NCBI RefSeq assembly: GCF_016495725.1 | Contig: NZ_CP054705.1 | Coordinates: 2,294,001-2,358,000 of the forward strand | Direction of reading: 5' to 3' | DNA length: 64,000 bases | DNA from: Salicibibacter cibarius | Lineage (GTDB): Bacteria > Bacillota > Bacilli > Bacillales > Marinococcaceae | Shown: positions 11,693 through 51,860 of the stretch, one piece after another | How the letters are laid out: every line of letters begins with the position of its first letter | Numbering within the stretch: position 1 is the first letter of the stretch | The notes under the pieces: model-generated | Told to the model about the DNA's origin: nothing | Seen by the model: only the letters and a program-made list of their open reading frames with translations | The model's database searches: none | Made by a program: the position numbers and the translations under genes

Positions 11693-11725
11693 AAAGGGGC
11701 GGTCGATAAAAGGCCTCCCTTTTTT
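11693..11725 (+). terminator. Terminator after the deacetylase gene
   Basis: AAAGGGG(C)GGTC pairs with GGCCTCCCTTT with one bulged C and ends in six T, 10 nt past the stop codon. Confidence 0.75.
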
Positions 11726-11885
11726 GTTTTCAAGACGTTTGAATAAGGACAAAAATGCGGATTATCTAAGTTTTTTGTCTTGAAAAACGTTGAAGGAAGA
11801 CAAAAATGGCAATTTGGTGGGCGTTTTGTCTTAAAAAGAGCGAATGCAGGATATAATGCTTGACGATAGTAAAATCTTGTCTTAT
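11722..11885. repeat. Tandem 51-bp dyad array A
   Basis: Units start at 11722, 11773, 11824 and 11875, exactly 51 bp apart, each beginning with TTTTGT or a variant. Unit 2 carries a perfect inverted repeat, TTTTGTCTT (11773-11781) and AAGACAAAA (11797-11805). Units 1 and 3 are diverged copies, and unit 4 keeps little more than TCTTGTCTT. The array fills the spacer between the convergent deacetylase and catalase genes. No reading frame is supported. Confidence 0.8.
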
Positions 11886-15197: not shown

Positions 15198-15380
15198 GTG
15201 CCTCACCTCGAATCACAGCCTACTCATTATTCTAGCGTTTCTTATGCCGGAAGAAAACATTTATGAACGAAGTATTCGTGATCATTCGTTTTCATGGCGC
15301 CCAAAACAAACAAGACGCGTTGCGACACTCCAAGGAAAGATGAAGGAGGTGTTGATCATATCGTGTTTGTCGCATTTGCG

Positions 15381-15600
15381 GACTCATTTGACTTCCCGCG
15401 CTACATATTGAGTCCTCAAAACCCTATCCTGAGGACTCATATTAATCACGCGCAACACAATAAGTCCCCAAACCCCCGTCCTGAGGACTCATTTGGGTCC
15501 CATGCAGCACTTTGAGTCCGCCAAACCCAATTCTGAAGACTCATATGGGGCTCGGACAGCATAAAGAGTCCTCAAAACCCTACCCGAGGGCTAATCTAGT
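15381..15600. repeat. Tandem 52-bp dyad array B
   Basis: GACTCAT or a variant recurs at 15381, 15434, 15486, 15538 and 15589 (spacing 53, 52, 52, 51). Between copies lies GAGTCCTCA-like sequence, so unit boundaries form hairpins. The best is TGAGTCCTCA (15409-15418) with TGAGGACTCA (15430-15439), a perfect 10-bp stem with an 11-nt loop. The array lies in the 656-bp spacer between divergent fetA and the acyl-CoA ligase. The rest of the spacer (15601-15840) shows no supported gene; a 63-codon minus-strand frame there lacks a ribosome site. Confidence 0.82.
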
Positions 15601-36458: not shown

Positions 36459-36506
36459 ATTTGAGAACCATCGATAGGTGATCTTGGTTGGCTCATGGCA
36501 CTCATG

Positions 36507-36610
36507 GCACCTCAAAAATGTAAAATCAACCAATCTGAGGTTCCATAAACGATCATATGACACCTTAAAAAGGCAAAATTTCGCATTTTGAGGTGCCATG
36601 CATCTAGTGT
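36507..36610. repeat. Tandem 52-bp dyad array C (two units)
   Basis: GGCACCTCA at 36507 and GACACCTTA at 36559 are 52 bp apart. Each pairs with the end of its unit (TGAGGTTCC, TGAGGTGCC) as a roughly 9-bp dyad. The sequence across the unit junction (AGGTTCCATAAACGATCATATGACACCT) is recognisably related to the core of array E at 46381-46409. Confidence 0.75.
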
Positions 36611-40542: not shown

Positions 40543-40843
40543 ACCTGTTTCATGTCGAAGGATCAATTTTTTCCCTTTCTCTGATCAAATCGTTGGAGAC
40601 TGGGCGAGCCAAAACCGGCTTTTATGATACGCCGGCTGCCTTTTTTGATTCACGTCCGGCTTGTACGACTGCCCGATGTATAGCAGGAGCTAGTGCAAAA
40701 AGGCTGAAATAAGTGATCACACCGACTATCGGAAGTCTGGATTGGGACTTCAAACCAGGGTAAACGGTCACTGCCCTAGTCAAGGGATCAATTACTCTCG
40801 TCAATGACCGAATATCTTCCCTCGAAACAGGACTCCCGGTTTT

Positions 40844-41035
40844 CATGAAACGGTCATGGCGACCGAAAACAAAAGCCAATCGCTCGTTCGGGCGCCATGA
40901 GGCAGCCATGCCGACCGAATATCTTTGATACAAGCCTTTTCGGTCACCATGAAGCGGCTATGACGCCCGAACGCTTTCGATTCAGGCCATTACGGTCGCC
41001 ATGACGCGGTAAATTGTCCGTTAGGGAGTCAGAAG
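40844..41035. repeat. Tandem 52-bp dyad array D1
   Basis: CATGA-type cores start at 40844, 40896, 40948 and 41000, exactly 52 bp apart. Each is an imperfect inverted repeat such as TTCGGGCGCCATG ... CATGCCGACCGAA. Sequence belongs to the same family as array E. A 103-codon minus-strand frame crosses it, but the 52-bp period is not a multiple of three and the frame has no ribosome site. Confidence 0.82.
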
Positions 41036-41117
41036 CGTTGGCGCCCTAACTTCCTCCGTGATTGGCTAATTGAGCCACCTTGCACTAGTGGCGTATACCC
41101 CAAAGCGAGAGGGTGAA

Positions 41118-41300
41118 CGACTCCCATTGCTACTATAAACCCGTTTTCGTACCACTTTCGGAAGGAGAACGGGCCCCCAATGGGACAATTTAAATCGATT
41201 TTGTTCCACAAACGGAGGGAATACGACTCTAAATGGTACAATAAACTCGATTTCATACCACAAACGGAAGGAAAGTGACTCCATATGGTACGAAAAACCT
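41118..41300. repeat. Tandem 52-54 bp array D2
   Basis: Units start at 41118, 41170, 41224 and 41276 (52, 54, 52 bp) with a CGACTCCNNATGGTACAAT-like head and a TACCACAAACGGAAGG-like tail. TGGTA and TACCA form short dyads. A different sequence family from D1, placed immediately after it in the ccdC-yneF spacer. Confidence 0.75.
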
Positions 41301-41468
41301 GACTTCGCCTCTTAATCAGATGGGAGGTGCTCTTCCCAATAGATTTCCATTATATCAAACCACTCTTTTTGGATCATAGTTCATAGATACCCCGCTTGTA
41401 TTCAGCATAGCACGTTCCACCTTAAAAACAAAAAACACCCCCAAATCCTAAAGAGGTGTTCCGTTCGG

Positions 41469-45200: not shown

Positions 45201-45245
45201 TATATGGTAAGCTTTAGACAAATATAAATTAACGAGGTGAATAAA

Positions 45246-45878
45246 ATGAAAAAGCTTTCGCAACGACAAGAAACGATCCTTGAGTTTATTAAAGACAACG
45301 TGAAAAAGAAAGGATATCCACCCTCTGTAAGAGAAATCGGCGAAGCAGTCAACCTTGCCTCAAGCTCAACCGTGCACGGCCATTTGGCTCGATTGGAAAA
45401 GAAGGGGTATATCCGCAGAGACCCGACCAAACCAAGGGCAATTGAAGTTCTTCATCTCGATGAAGATGGAAACGAAATAGCCGAAGCAGACAAGCCGGCA
45501 AGTGCTTATGTTCCTTTGATCGGTAAAGTAACCGCGGGCGTTCCCATTACAGCTGTCGAAAATGTAGAGAGCTATATGCCGTTGCCCGACGATTTTGTCG
45601 GAAGTGACCAGGTGTTCATGCTCACCATTGAAGGAGACAGTATGATTGACGCGGGGATTCTTGATGGAGATCAAGTGATTGTACGCCAACAACCGACCGC
45701 AGATAACGGTGATATTATCGTAGCGATGACAGACGAACAAGAAGCAACCGTCAAACGCTTTTATAATGAAGGGGACCACATCCGATTACAGCCCGAAAAC
45801 CAAACATTGGAACCGATCATTCTTGACAATTGCCAAGTGCTCGGAAAAGTAAGCGGTGTCTTCCGTACGATTTCGTAA
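45246..45878 (+). CDS. lexA: LexA repressor
   Basis: SOS master repressor, 210 aa, that self-cleaves with RecA. N-terminal winged helix ([24 protein letters not shown]), cleavage site A97-G98 in KVTAGVP, catalytic S132 in EGDSMI and K170 in ATVKRFY all present. GAGGTG lies 6 nt before the ATG at 45246, so the GTG three codons upstream is not the start. Divergent from the yneA-like gene with shared LexA boxes. Confidence 0.96.
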
Positions 45879-46094
45879 AACAAAATGCCGATAAAGGAGA
45901 ATGGAAAGAGTGAGTCTTTCCTTCTTCATCTTTTTGACAATTAAGTTAACATAATAATATTACATCAACCTAATTCCGTTTCTGTTTTACTGTATGCACA
46001 GCGCGTATCTGTTTAGAACAGCCTGGGTTATTTTTTCTTCCCGTTTTTCTTTTTACAGCGAGAATCAACAATCCAGGCATGGAAACCGCGATTG
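45879..46094. other. Spacer after lexA
   Basis: GGAAAGA-GTGAG-TCTTTCC (45903-45921) is a weak terminator-like hairpin for lexA followed by a pyrimidine-rich stretch. A 14-17 codon hydrophobic frame starts at 45901-45910 after AAAGGAG but overlaps the hairpin and is not called. Nothing else seen. Confidence 0.45.
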
Positions 46095-46192
46095 TTTAGA
46101 AAAACTTGGCTTCCACCAAATCTTTATGGTGGAAGCCTTAGTTCATCTTATACTTTAATCCTTTAACAAAGTTAAACATTTTTAAAGTGTAA
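46095..46192. repeat. 98-bp dispersed structured element, copy 2
   Basis: Second copy of the element at 31109-31206, same length. Its stem is GGCTTCCACC with GGTGGAAGCC: a G-C pair of copy 1 is replaced by A-T and the stem extends by one pair, so structure is preserved. The 3' half is almost identical. Confidence 0.75.
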
Positions 46193-46218
46193 AAAAAGAC
46201 CAATTTCCAACACACCCA

Positions 46219-46560
46219 TCACCTCGCGATCATTGCCAATATGGTATGTATAAACGAGCGCGAGGTGAGCGGTAAATGATTGGCACGAAGGGGCCATGAA
46301 GACCGAAATGATGATCGAAACACTAATAAAGGCGCCATGATGTGCTCATGGCGCCCATAACGACGATCAAGTCTAAAATTCAGGTGTCATGAAGCAGTCA
46401 TGACACCTGTAAATCGCTTTTACCCGGGATTTCGGGCGCTATGAAGCGTCCATGGAGACCGAAACGACGTTCGAGACTTCGTTTGGAGCGTCATGAATCG
46501 GTCATGGAACCTGAAGGCCTCACCTGCATCGTATTACGAGATGTCCATGATACCCGAAAT
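46219..46560. repeat. Tandem 52-bp dyad array E
   Basis: CATGA-type cores at 46295, 46336, 46388, 46440, 46492 and 46546 (spacing 41, 52, 52, 52, 54). Perfect dyads: GGCGCCATGA with TCATGGCGCC (46331-46355) and CAGGTGTCATGA with TCATGACACCTG (46381-46409). Arm differences between these two units are compensated on the other side. A further 10-bp dyad (TCACCTCGCG, CGCGAGGTGA) spans 46220-46269. Lies between convergent lexA and the metallo-hydrolase gene. Confidence 0.85.
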
Positions 46561-46597: not shown

Positions 46598-46629
46598 GAA
46601 AAACCCCCCGAGCTCATTTGGCTCGAGGG
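46598..46629 (-). terminator. Metallo-hydrolase terminator
   Basis: CCCGAGC and GCTCGAGGG form the stem with one unpaired base, followed on the minus strand by TTTTT. Confidence 0.7.
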
Positions 46630-46654: not shown

Positions 46655-47452
46655 TTAGTATTCATTCTCCAGAATCGAAGAAACAATGTGCAAAGAGTCC
46701 CATTCTCCCCCGGAGACGCTTATAATCGGGTACTTTTTCGGATAAAAATTGTCTCTAATCTCCTCAACGGAAAGCCCTTCTTTATGTAGGTGTTTCACCT
46801 CTTGGGAAAGGTTCTCAAGGTGATCTAGTTTTTGCTTTAGCATCTCTTTCCCGTTTTCTACATATCCGGCATGGCAACAAAATAGCGATTCAAAATCATA
46901 AGCGAGCAATGTTCGAATGGAATCCATCGTCTGCGGGATGGACTCGCTGCTCATAATGACCTTCGGTTTCGGAGCAACAAATAAATCCCCAGCAAATAGC
47001 GTTCTATTTTCTTCATCGAAAAAAGCGACATGATCATCTGCATGCCCCGGCGTGTAAATGACTTTCCATTCCCTGTTTTGAGATCGGATCGCACTTTCAA
47101 GTGGCGTCGTCTGAAACCCTTTCCGTTTCCCCCAAGTCATCTGACGATACTTCGGGTAGGGTGAGTCTTGGGCGCATATATCAACCCCCTTTGGATGAAC
47201 ATAAATAGGCACTCCATGGTTTTGCTGAAGCCACGGCGCTGTTCCGGAATGGTCTTCATGGCTATGGGTCAGGACGACAAAATCAATCGCATGTGCTTCA
47301 TAAAAAGGAATAAGGTCCGGCTCCATGCGCGGTGGCCCAGTGTCGACTAACATACCGTCAACCAAAAAGGAATAGACGGTATTTGTCTTTTTCCCTCCGA
47401 GGACAACGTCCATTTTTACACAAGTCACATTTTCCTTTTCATATACTTGCAA
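46655..47452 (-). CDS. MBL-fold metallo-hydrolase
   Basis: A 265-aa metallo-beta-lactamase-fold enzyme with two metals. HSHEDH near residue 63, the next histidine in TPGHADDH near 137, aspartate in FAGDLF near 156 and the terminal histidine in CCHAG. The C-terminal helical extension (QKLDHLENLSQEVKHLHKEG) resembles LACTB2-like or glyoxalase II-like hydrolases. AAGGGG lies 9 nt before a TTG. It lies 25 nt downstream of the thioesterase on the same strand, probably one operon controlled by the TetR gene upstream. Confidence 0.85.
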   Translation of the reverse strand: MQVYEKENVTCVKMDVVLGGKKTNTVYSFLVDGMLVDTGPPRMEPDLIPFYEAHAIDFVVLTHSHEDHSGTAPWLQQNHGVPIYVHPKGVDICAQDSPYPKYRQMTWGKRKGFQTTPLESAIRSQNREWKVIYTPGHADDHVAFFDEENRTLFAGDLFVAPKPKVIMSSESIPQTMDSIRTLLAYDFESLFCCHAGYVENGKEMLKQKLDHLENLSQEVKHLHKEGLSVEEIRDNFYPKKYPIISVSGGEWDSLHIVSSILENEY

Positions 47453-48765: not shown

Positions 48766-48790
48766 ATGGAATGGAAAACCTATTGTCAAT
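48766..48790 (+). pseudogene. 5' end of a gene cut by the IscB element
   Basis: GGGTG lies 5 nt before ATG GAA TGG AAA ACC TAT TGT CAA; the frame hits a stop as the element begins. A matching 3' fragment may be 50963-51043. Identity unknown. Confidence 0.3.
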
Positions 48791-49020
48791 AACTCCCACC
48801 AATTCGTAGAATTGGAAGGGGCTTGAAAAGCCTTTATTGACTAGCCTAAGTCTTAACTGACTACGTTATCGACCATGAAGAAACCTATGGATGATTCCCT
48901 AGTCCGTAGCTCTTTCGTGGCTCTGTAAACATCTCTGAGGGGGTAGGAGACATCAACCACATCGCGAAGGGTCGATAACATTGGCGAAGGGAAACCACTC
49001 CTAGAAAGGAGGAACACTTC
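48791..49020 (+). ncRNA. HEARO / omega-RNA of IscB
   Basis: About 230 nt of conserved, highly structured sequence directly upstream of iscB, as in all OMEGA-IscB loci. It contains GGCTCTGTAAACATCTCTGAGG-like and ATCGCGAAGGGTCGATAACA segments that can form long-range pairs (ATCGACC at 48869 with GGTCGATAAC at 48969, TTATCGACC ends). By family rule the guide would be the host sequence just left of the element, about 48771-48790. Boundaries are estimated. Confidence 0.7.
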
Positions 49021-50157
49021 ATGTTAGTGTTCGTAAAAAACAAGCATGGCGAGTCACTAATGCCGTGCAAACCGCAAAAAGCAAGGCGATTACTGAAACA
49101 AAAGAAAGCTAAAATCGTATCTTATGAACCCTTTACGATCCAGCTATTATATGGATCAAGTGGCTACAAGCAAAATGTGAATATAGGCGTTGATTTGGGC
49201 GCGAAGGATACAGGCGTTGCGATCACTAGCGAGGATAAAGTGCTTGCAAAAGGTGACATCGAAACCCGCCAAGACGTGAAAAATTTGTTGAATACAAGAC
49301 GAGCGTATAGACAATCAAGGCGTCATCGTAAGACACGCTATCGAAAACCACGCTTTGACAATCGAAAACGCCCCGACGGATGGCTACCACCGAGTATCGA
49401 AAGTCGGATTCAAAACACATTCAGATGGATCGATAAATTCTATTCCCTTGTGCCGAATCCAACATTAACAATCGAAGTTGGCAAATTTGATCCTCACAAG
49501 ATGATCAATCCTGACATTCAAGGGATCGATTATCAAAAAGGACAAACCTATGGCTATTATGATGTCCGGTATTTTGTGTTTGCAAGAGACAACTATACGT
49601 GCCAAGTTTGCAAGAAACAAAGCAAGATACTGAATACCCATCATATTGTCTATCGTTCTCATGGTGGTAGTGATCGTGCGGATAATCTCATTACTGTTTG
49701 TACCGATTGTCATACGCATGAGAATCATAAAAAAGGGAAAATCCTTTGGGAGTGGATGATGGAGGGCAAAAAGCTACCTAGCTATAAAGAAGGTACGTTC
49801 ATGAATGTGTTTCGCAGGAGAGTGTTTGATAAATATTCGGATGTAAATATCACCTATGGTTCCGTTACGACACCTAAACGTAAAGCATTAGGGTTAGATA
49901 AAACCCATTATAACGACGCGATAGCGATCAGTGGGATAGATAAGATTGATTATGACACCTATTCCATCTTCAAGATCAAGCAGTTTCGCAAAAAGAAACG
50001 ATCTTTACATGAAGCAACAGCACGAAAAGGAAGAAAGTGTAAAAATACAATCAGCCAGCGAAATATAAAGAATAAGCCGTTCTTAAACGACCCACCTGCT
50101 TTAGCAGGTGGATTTGGACATAAATTGTCCGCGACTGAAAGTCGCATTTCAGACTGA
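49021..50157 (+). pseudogene. iscB: IscB RNA-guided nuclease, C-terminus displaced by an insertion
   Basis: As read, 378 aa. PLMP region (ESLMPCKPQKARRLL, residues 11-25), RuvC-I D58, arginine-rich bridge helix 93-116, RuvC-II E152, HNH 184-235 with H207/H208, N222, H231 and zinc cysteines C194, C197, C227, C230, RuvC-III D299. All catalytic residues are intact. Residues 355-378 come from the inserted IS. The original frame resumes at 50725 (YNLKGFYLNDKVLF ... KHTNNW, stop 50916-50918), giving 418 aa when joined at TTCT. AAGGAGG lies before the ATG. The lost part is the C-terminal target-interaction domain, so activity is doubtful. Confidence 0.85.
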
Positions 50158-50724
50158 AGTCTGCTGAAAGACCTTAAGCTCAAGCATACTGATTTTGACT
50201 GGAACTCAATCATCAATCCTGAATATATCGTTCCTCTTCTCGCTGGTCTGGTTTTCGATATAATTTCTAATGATTTCTTCCGTCACATTTCCTACTGTTG
50301 CACAAAAATATCCTCTCGCCCATAAGTGCTGACCCCAATATCTTTTCTTCAGGGCGGGGAATTCGTCTTGGATTAACCTTGATGATCTCCCTTTGAGATA
50401 TTGCAATATCTTACTCGGTGCTATGCTCGGCGGACAGGACAATAATAAGTGAATATGGTCTTTCCCTACACTTCCTTGTACTATCGTGATCCCTCTCGCT
50501 TCACATCCTTGTCTGATTAGTTCCCTTACTCGGTGGGCAATGTCGCCACGTAACACATGATATCTATACTTTGTAACCCATATAATGTGGTATTTGATGT
50601 CATAGACCGCGTGGCTACTTCTTTTGTATTCATCCATACTCTCACCTCGGTTTAAGTATGGACATTCAAAGGCAAGGCTAAAAGCTTATACCGTCTAAAG
50701 ACGGTGGAGTTAGACCACGCTTCT
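50084..50724 (-). mobile_element. IS200-type element nested in iscB
   Basis: About 641 bp with one gene, tnpA. Right-end hairpin CCACCTGC-TTTA-GCAGGTGG (50092-50111) and left-end hairpin ACCGTCT-AA-AGACGGT (50689-50704). TTCT occurs at both junctions (50080-50083 and 50721-50724); removing one interval rejoins the iscB frame exactly (TTC TAT AAC). Boundaries therefore carry a 4-nt ambiguity. Confidence 0.85.
50206..50637 (-). CDS. tnpA: IS200/IS605 TnpA transposase (Y1 HUH)
   Basis: Single-strand DNA transposase, 143 aa, full length. HUH motif H61-I-H63 in GKDHIHLLLS and nucleophile Y126 in IIRNYIENQ are intact, so it may be active. It faces iscB tail to tail. It is preceded by its left-end hairpin. 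Confidence 0.94.
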   Translation of the reverse strand: MDEYKRSSHAVYDIKYHIIWVTKYRYHVLRGDIAHRVRELIRQGCEARGITIVQGSVGKDHIHLLLSCPPSIAPSKILQYLKGRSSRLIQDEFPALKKRYWGQHLWARGYFCATVGNVTEEIIRNYIENQTSEKRNDIFRIDD

Positions 50725-50962
50725 ATAACTTAAAGGGATTTTATCTCAATGACAAAGTGCTGTTTCAAGGAAAGGTGGGATGGATCTCGGGTTTCAATGG
50801 TACAAGCATGGCCTTTGTCAAAAACATCGAAGACCAATATCTCACAAACCCAGATAAAAGTTACAAACAAGTTCCACTAAAAGCACTCACGTTTATCAAA
50901 CACACAAACAATTGGTAATTCCTCCCCCACTAAATCACAGATTTTGAAGGGGAATCCTTGCC

Positions 50963-51109: not shown

Positions 51110-51135
51110 AAAGAATGATCATTAAAATATTTTTC

Positions 51136-51220
51136 CACTAGAGGTGTCGAAAGACTGAGAGGGACGCGCGTCCTAACTCTTGGAACCTGACCCGGTTCAT
51201 ACCGGCGTAGGGAAGTGGAA
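51136..51220 (+). ncRNA. TPP riboswitch (THI element)
   Basis: Conserved blocks in order: CCACTAGAGGTGTC (P1/P2), CTGAGAGGGA, CTTGGAACCTGACCCGGTTCATACCGGCGTAGGGAAGTGG. P1 pairs CCACT with AGTGG. Senses thiamine pyrophosphate and controls thiT downstream. Confidence 0.95.
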
Positions 51221-51260
51221 GGCATGGATTTACGGGCCCAATAGGCTTGTAGACGCCTGG

Positions 51261-51296
51261 CTTCCCCCTGTGGACAAACAGAAAGGGGATTTTTTT
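51261..51296 (+). terminator. Riboswitch-controlled terminator covering the thiT ribosome site
   Basis: CCCC(C)TGT ... ACAGAAAGGGG forms the stem and is followed by A and seven T. AAAGGGG in the 3' arm is also the thiT Shine-Dalgarno, 7 nt before the ATG at 51297, so folding stops transcription and hides the ribosome site together. Confidence 0.75.
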
Positions 51297-51860
51297 ATGC
51301 AACAACGGACGCTTGTTATGGTTGAAATCGCTTTAATGACGGCACTCGCGTTTATTCTGAGCTTCGTGAAGTTTCCCGGGCCTTGGGTGCAAGGCGGCTC
51401 GATTTCTCTTATCATGGTGCCGATTTTCATTATGGCTTTTAGGCGCGGGTGGCGAGTTGGGGTGCTCACGGGATTGCTCGTCGGGATCGTGAATTTGATG
51501 TACAACGCTTCAATCATTCATCCGATCCAGATGTTGTTGGATTATCCGGTGCCATACGCGGTTCTCGGACTTGCCGCATTGTTTGCATTTCGAAATAGCG
51601 AGGGGAAATTGTCCGTGCCCTGGGCGCTTTTCGGTTTGTTGTTCGCCGGGTTTTTACGATTGTTATCTCACATCGTCTCCGGTGTCGTTTGGTTTGGGAG
51701 CTTCACTCCGGAAGGTATGAATGTCTATCTCTATTCGATCGGTTACAATATTTCCTATTTATTGCCGGAAATTTTGATCACGCTTGTTGTCGTCTACATC
51801 CTCTCCAGGGCACAGCCTGATTTTTTTCACATGAAAAAAACAACCCCACTTCCCTCTTAA
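51297..51860 (+). CDS. thiT: ThiT thiamine transporter S component
   Basis: Membrane substrate-binding subunit of an ECF thiamine importer, 187 aa with about six helices. ALMTALAFILSFVKFPGPWVQGGSISLIMVPIF is the family signature with thiamine-contacting aromatic residues, and LRLLSHIVSGVVWFG is the second. The ATG at 51297 is set by the ribosome site in the terminator. The frame extending upstream through the riboswitch is not coding. Controlled by TPP. Confidence 0.93.
   Translation: MQQRTLVMVEIALMTALAFILSFVKFPGPWVQGGSISLIMVPIFIMAFRRGWRVGVLTGLLVGIVNLMYNASIIHPIQMLLDYPVPYAVLGLAALFAFRNSEGKLSVPWALFGLLFAGFLRLLSHIVSGVVWFGSFTPEGMNVYLYSIGYNISYLLPEILITLVVVYILSRAQPDFFHMKKTTPLPS

Follow-up and report, generated by a model that had tools for sequence, protein, structure and literature searches.

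Intergenic dyad arrays of unrelated sequence share a 52-bp pitch in Salicibibacter cibarius

Introduction

The genome of Salicibibacter cibarius (Bacillales, Marinococcaceae) carries a real, large and sequence-diverse class of intergenic dyad arrays that is defined by a pitch of 52 bp. The window discussed here is the whole stretch of 64,000 nucleotides extending from 2,294,001 to 2,358,000 of the 4.51-Mb single-contig genome. It encodes homologues of SirA, LexA and CcdC and contains the arrays named A to E below, whose coordinates are those of the window. The genome was sampled as 60 spread stretches of 20 kb together with the window, amounting to 1.264 Mb (28%). In the lag scan applied to this sample, self-match scores of 60-base windows were computed for every lag between 20 and 160.

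The 52-bp pitch across the genome

Sorted by lag, the arrays of the 1.264-Mb sample number 81 at 52, 58 at 104 and 41 at 156, and all non-triplet lags outside these three groups hold 2 arrays together. The same scan returned no array in shuffles of a 464-kb subset. Lags 51 and 53 account for 11 and 6 arrays, and merging lags 51-53 yields 91 arrays occupying 22.5 kb, or 1.8% of the sampled DNA; extrapolation from the 28% sample gives a genome total of about 300-325 arrays. The excess of 51-54 bp periodicity over shuffled sequence that the sequence-only reading had implied is overwhelming at 51-53 bp in this sample. The arrays are intergenic, and divergent spacers hold 7 of 84, below expectation. 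The array at L108:6419-7207, 789 bp long with about 15 units, displays higher-order repeats of three units (156 bp).

Fifty-two base pairs correspond to five turns of B-DNA. That such a pitch is selected or enforced is supported by the exact spacing within the CATGA family, where 170 units were found and the distance between neighbours is exactly 52 bp for 131 of 139. Both linkers measure exactly 19 nt in 27 consecutive pairs whose best identity is at most 9/19. Since the register is exact despite diverged linkers, and since deletions remove 52 bp (see below), the pitch seems to be kept up, and recent duplication alone would not account for it. It looks constrained, and selection on it is suggested rather than proven.

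Array E and its locus

Array E occupies the spacer between lexA (45237..45878, + strand; TIGR00498, 2.8e-77) and the gene of an MBL-fold metallohydrolase (46655..47452, - strand; PF00753). It lies just past the terminator of the latter, a terminator-like stem CGAGCTCATTTGGCTCG (46600..46629, - strand) with a T run on the - strand that is conserved in congeners. The array extends over 46275-46515 and comprises five imperfect dyads whose centres, placed by a position weight matrix (PWM) derived from CATGA-type dyads, are exactly 52 bp apart. In unit 1 (46275..46307, centre 46291), identified by the PWM scan, the left half is decayed and the right half, CCATGAAGACCGAA, is intact. The two perfect dyads described by the sequence-only reading are present: unit 2 (46327..46359, centre 46343) contains GGCGCCATGA-TGTGC-TCATGGCGCC at 46331-46355, with 10-bp arms and a 5-nt loop, and unit 3 (46379..46411, centre 46395) contains CAGGTGTCATGA-AGCAG-TCATGACACCTG at 46381-46409, with 12-bp arms and a 5-nt loop. 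Units 4 (46431..46463, centre 46447) and 5 (46483..46515, centre 46499) are imperfect dyads, and the array ends on a degenerate half-site, CCATGATACCCGAA (46545..46558, + strand), that is off the 52-bp register. Neither repeated flanks nor terminal inverted repeats were found around array E.

The core spacings first given for this array, 41, 52, 52, 52 and 54 bp, are retained for the 52-bp pitch; the values 41 and 54 are not, as left and right half-sites had been counted together. The 41-bp spacing arises because the first CATGA (46295) belongs to the right half of the left-decayed dyad and the next (46336) is a left half, and the 54-bp spacing because its endpoint is the degenerate half-site at 46545-46558. 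The start formerly placed at 46219 falls outside the array, within a stretch that congeners conserve, even the one devoid of array. Among the orthologous lexA spacers of congeners, one is without array, one has about 2 units and one has 4-5 units. The units of array E are too diverged for the lag scan alone to call it, which could suggest that it reflects a fault of assembly or annotation, or CATGA motifs aligned by chance. This explanation is refuted by the five PWM matches in register, against 0 such matches in a shuffled 1.26-Mb control, and by two congeners that carry an array of this family at the corresponding position.

Several other features surround this locus. An insertion of about 100 bp with a GGCTTCCACC/GGTGGAAGCC hairpin (46089-46196), related to stretches elsewhere in the genome with 83-93% identity, breaks a minus-strand ORF for a small membrane protein, which is uninterrupted in a congener. 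A HEARO (omega) RNA followed by an IscB gene (48785-50157; NF040563, 1.3e-112) is located 2 kb from array E. Directly after iscB comes a stand-alone IS200-type element with a Y1 transposase (50081-50734), of which the genome holds several further copies with 98-99% identity. A TPP riboswitch (51130-51230) lies upstream of ORF 51180-51860.

Arrays A to D and the element carrying array C

Array A (15380..15590) consists of 52-bp units of the GAGTCCTCA...TGAGGACTC family and array B (36486..36599) of lag-53 units with GAGGTNCCAT-type arms. Array C (40835..41023) is made of four CATGA units, centred at 40851, 40903, 40955 and 41007 and thus exactly 52 bp apart, and array D (41167..41329) of 52-bp units of the TGGTACAA...-type family. 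The earlier proposal that the same design recurs with other sequences in four further spacers stands for the arrays themselves and needs amending for the spacers, as C and D share one. A possible additional array with a 51-bp lag lies in a convergent spacer at 11718-11840.

Array C is carried by a MITE-like dispersed element (40690..41088) with terminal CTAGTGCA...TGCACTAG. Elements of this kind measure 400-480 bp, and about 30 other related stretches occur in the genome. The copy in the window has lost exactly one 52-bp unit; among 18 copies, two independent array deletions are each of exactly 52 bp. The array part of the element shows 6 non-52 gaps per 87 variable columns against about 24 gap intervals per 143 in the flanks, a modest difference between raw counts. 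The suggestion that the arrays are a by-product of transposition was thus correct in part, for array C within its dispersed element bounded by terminal inverted repeats; most arrays, including E, are without such repeats.

Sequence families and dyad symmetry

Clustering of the 52-bp consensus units from 97 arrays separated about 10 sequence-unrelated families, mostly based on dyads and with no common sequence. The CATGA family is the largest (47 of the 97 arrays), ahead of the GAGGGATTAC/GTTCCTC (24), GAGTCCTCAG/CTGAGGACTC (11) and TTCGGACAA/TTGTCCGAA (5) families and several single arrays. For 44 of the 97 arrays the consensus is more dyad-symmetric than shuffles (p<=0.05; about 5 expected), and such arrays belong to 8 of the 13 clusters. 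The Chi sequence AGCGG is present in 17 of the 170 hairpin loops of CATGA units.

The arms of array E had been thought to be preserved by compensatory change. This idea was not borne out by 65 diverse CATGA units, in which standard pairs fill 75.8% of arm cells; permuting the 3' letters between units gave 75.1 +/- 0.6%, and 65 of 500 such shuffles reached the observed value. The covariation score of the same units is matched by 64 of 500 shuffles, which is chance level, and RNAalifold predicted no consensus structure for CATGA units. The family possesses a conserved half-site, TCATG-N4-CCGAA, that is inverted in the two arms, mismatches being common at positions 9 and 11 of the dyad. As pairing is at shuffle level, the arms are explained by this half-site in inverted orientation. 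One orthologous unit pair (A54) changed from G-C to A-T on both arms, so individual compensations exist. The statement that symmetry is selected and not sequence is not supported within the CATGA family, whose half-site is conserved; it holds only between families, as symmetry without common sequence.

Orientation relative to replication

The sign of the GC skew switches near 2.28 Mb, a point taken as the terminus. When only CATGA arrays of two or more units are counted, their orientation relative to replication is 29 to 10 (one-sided p 0.0017), and 26 to 6 once copies of the array-C element are removed. When the three oriented families of the 1.264-Mb sample are pooled, 50 of 66 arrays are aligned with replication, at a p of 3e-5 that is optimistic because the majority within each family defined its sign. 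Divided by neighbouring genes, the pooled counts are 17:7 for leading, 10:1 for lagging and 23:8 for mixed spacers. Whole-genome searches with one array as query and nearby matches merged gave 31 of 40 oriented for family 2 and 18 of 25 for family 3 (one-sided binomial p 0.0003 and 0.02). The CATGA units show no bias with respect to transcription direction (56 vs 51), and their orientation flips in 32 of 134 adjacent pairs. A bias toward replication without a bias toward gene direction means that replication, not transcription, predicts orientation, which argues against a role as RNA. Mutational strand bias is an unlikely cause of the CATGA orientation, judging from G.T mismatches: it would favour G.T on the leading strand, whereas the G.T-richer orientation is on the lagging side.

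Gain, loss and breadth across genomes

Orthologous spacers of congeners display clean presence or absence of arrays, for instance between a stop codon and a terminator, and arrays lose units in exact steps of 52 bp. Congeners have the same lag-52 peak, with 7 and 9 arrays per 0.4 Mb, and none was seen in a member of another genus. With a covariance model, the CATGA unit was found in 4 of 4 congeners (up to 150 matches listed per genome) and, beyond them, in only four of 397 sampled genomes of the order, belonging to three other families; a search by exact pattern further detected it in Cytobacillus eiseniae and Bacillus sp. FJAT-29790. In these distant Bacillales, too, CATGA units follow one another every 52 bp, the longest runs having 11. 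The genus closest to this one has a second array family, spaced for the most part at 52 or 104 bp. In G343, from another family of the order, a non-CATGA array of the type GAGTCYGAAC...TTCAGAC with a lag of 50-52 lies beside a CATGA unit (L242:1493-1700), and other sequence families may also share the pitch there. The queried array sequences had no match in the plasmid and phage collections PLSDB, INPHARED and IMG/VR, and a plasmid or phage origin was set aside on the queries used.

Comparison with described repeat classes

In agreement with the sequence-only reading, no described class with this combination of properties was found in the open-licence literature. The closest in organisation is STAR, the Staphylococcus aureus repeat (PMC3532100), with which the arrays share short GC-rich motifs in intergenic arrays of Bacillales, near-constant and locus-specific spacers, tandem repeats of about 50 nt, a strain-dependent number of units and precise presence or absence. 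STAR has one motif, T(G/A/T)TGTTG(G/T)GGCCC(C/A), with spacers of 40-44 bp and a variable pitch of about 54-58 (PMC3532100), whereas the present arrays have a pitch of 52 and unrelated motif families. Membership was rejected because the STAR motif has 0 matches on both strands of the 1.264 Mb.

REP and BIME sequences are imperfect palindromes, mostly extragenic, present in many copies and in several sequence families per genome (PMC3733652, PMC8266576). The arrays resemble them in all these respects and differ in being head-to-tail at a fixed pitch and in lacking enrichment of the GTAG tag. At the foot of the 170 CATGA units, GTAG occurs 2 and 1 times by side for 2.1 expected per side, and CGTC, weakly present on one side, 2 and 11 times for 4.6 expected. 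No PF01797 (Y1_Tnp) match was obtained in the array-bearing genomes G324 and G343 (99-100% completeness), a Y1 (RAYT) transposase being expected for GTAG REPs only. Membership of REP/RAYT was rejected on the foot tag and on this missing transposase.

The dispersed element around array C, with its CTAGTGCA/TGCACTAG ends, recalls MITEs; an assignment of all arrays to MITEs was rejected because repeated flanks occur in a minority only, and most arrays, E among them, differ in having neither these nor terminal inverted repeats. IS200/IS605 elements likewise have an orientation that follows replication (PMC5371812), and the arrays differ from them by the absence of a transposase gene and of shared ends; IS200 ends were rejected as a source of the hairpins, no similarity being seen. 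The arrays are not CRISPR, as repeats diverge by at least 30% and young arrays share linkers; no cas genes were present among the tested neighbours of the window arrays. Rfam covariance models gave no match at the arrays, the only ones in the window being HEARO and TPP, elsewhere.

Proposed mechanism and rival explanations

The leading reading, to which we give a probability of about 0.4, is that the arrays are helically phased inverted-repeat sites acting at the DNA level, spreading as intergenic repeats and having a putative protein partner. Each dyad would be bound by a putative symmetric DNA-binding protein, dimeric or structure-specific. Because 52 bp make five turns of B-DNA, every dyad would face the same side of the helix, and neighbouring complexes could pack side by side on one face. 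Such packing would constrain the centre-to-centre distance and leave the linker letters free. New arrays may arise as transposon-like repeats that only non-coding sites can accommodate, with one orientation to the replication fork preferred, and would then grow or shrink by recombination in whole 52-bp units. Insertion coupled to the fork is kept as a putative step because IS200/IS605 elements share a replication-linked orientation, and the benefit may fall to the host or to the repeat. This reading draws on the dominance of lag 52, the unrelated families, the exact spacing, the 52-bp deletions, the orientation, the empty orthologous spacers and the occurrence in distant Bacillales. Against it, helical phasing alone would tolerate deviations of 1-2 bp better than the CATGA data show, though lags 51 and 53 occur; a protein reading sequence would leave the pitch common to unrelated families unexplained, unless it reads structure or has several paralogues; and the dyads are imperfect, with covariation at chance level.

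The main rival is less probable than phased binding and holds that the arrays are a by-product of replication. Hairpins forming in single-stranded DNA at the fork would lead to tandem duplication with a 52-nt step fixed by the machinery, for instance by the geometry of single-strand-binding protein or polymerase, without selection for function; template switching between arms would produce the perfect dyads. An orientation that tracks replication and not transcription, deletions in whole units and one step size across unrelated sequences all fit this scheme, as do the dispensability of arrays between congeners and the fact that no conserved partner gene was found. Neutral decay should nevertheless add indels, and diverged arrays with unrelated linkers hold the exact register; in the array-C element, the array itself has fewer non-52 gaps for each variable column than its flanks, a modest difference between raw counts that points the same way.

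Dispersal by a transposase, as in REP/RAYT or IS200/IS605, acting on hairpins of the single-stranded lagging-strand template, is considered improbable. The hairpin dyads, the replication-linked orientation known from IS200/IS605 (PMC5371812), the 23 Y1_Tnp matches in the genome and the position of array C inside an element with terminal inverted repeats are in its favour; it is already weakened by G324 and G343, which bear arrays without Y1_Tnp match, by the lack of a GTAG/GGAG tag at the hairpin foot and by the IS200 copy of the window, which is not flanked by array units. Slightly less probable still are transcribed hairpin arrays of untranslated regions serving mRNA stability, as sponge or in termination. 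Several spacers do have an array between stop codon and terminator, and divergent spacers are under-represented. The hairpin RNA role raised by the sequence-only reading is nonetheless weakened by the absence of transcription-direction bias, the flips within arrays and the replication-linked orientation. G.U against A.C on the sense strand stands at 140 vs 117, covariation is absent, and an exact 52-nt spacing answers no obvious need of an RNA.

Significance

Bacterial repeat families are normally defined by their sequence. In the present case, families with unrelated letters have an exact length and a symmetry in common, in one genome and in several families of Bacillales, with an orientation linked to replication. 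It is conceivable, if doubtful, that they constitute a new kind of element, a DNA array encoded by length, which passes on and keeps a structural rule and whose sequence is free to change completely. With similar reserve, the rule might be one dyad per five helical turns, oriented to the fork, its putative reader being a structure-recognising protein or the replication machinery. A selected pitch would indicate a periodic DNA-protein assembly or a process linked to the fork, as yet undescribed; an unselected one would indicate duplication by a constant step of 52 nt. Either outcome would bear on the origin of interspersed palindromic repeats such as STAR.
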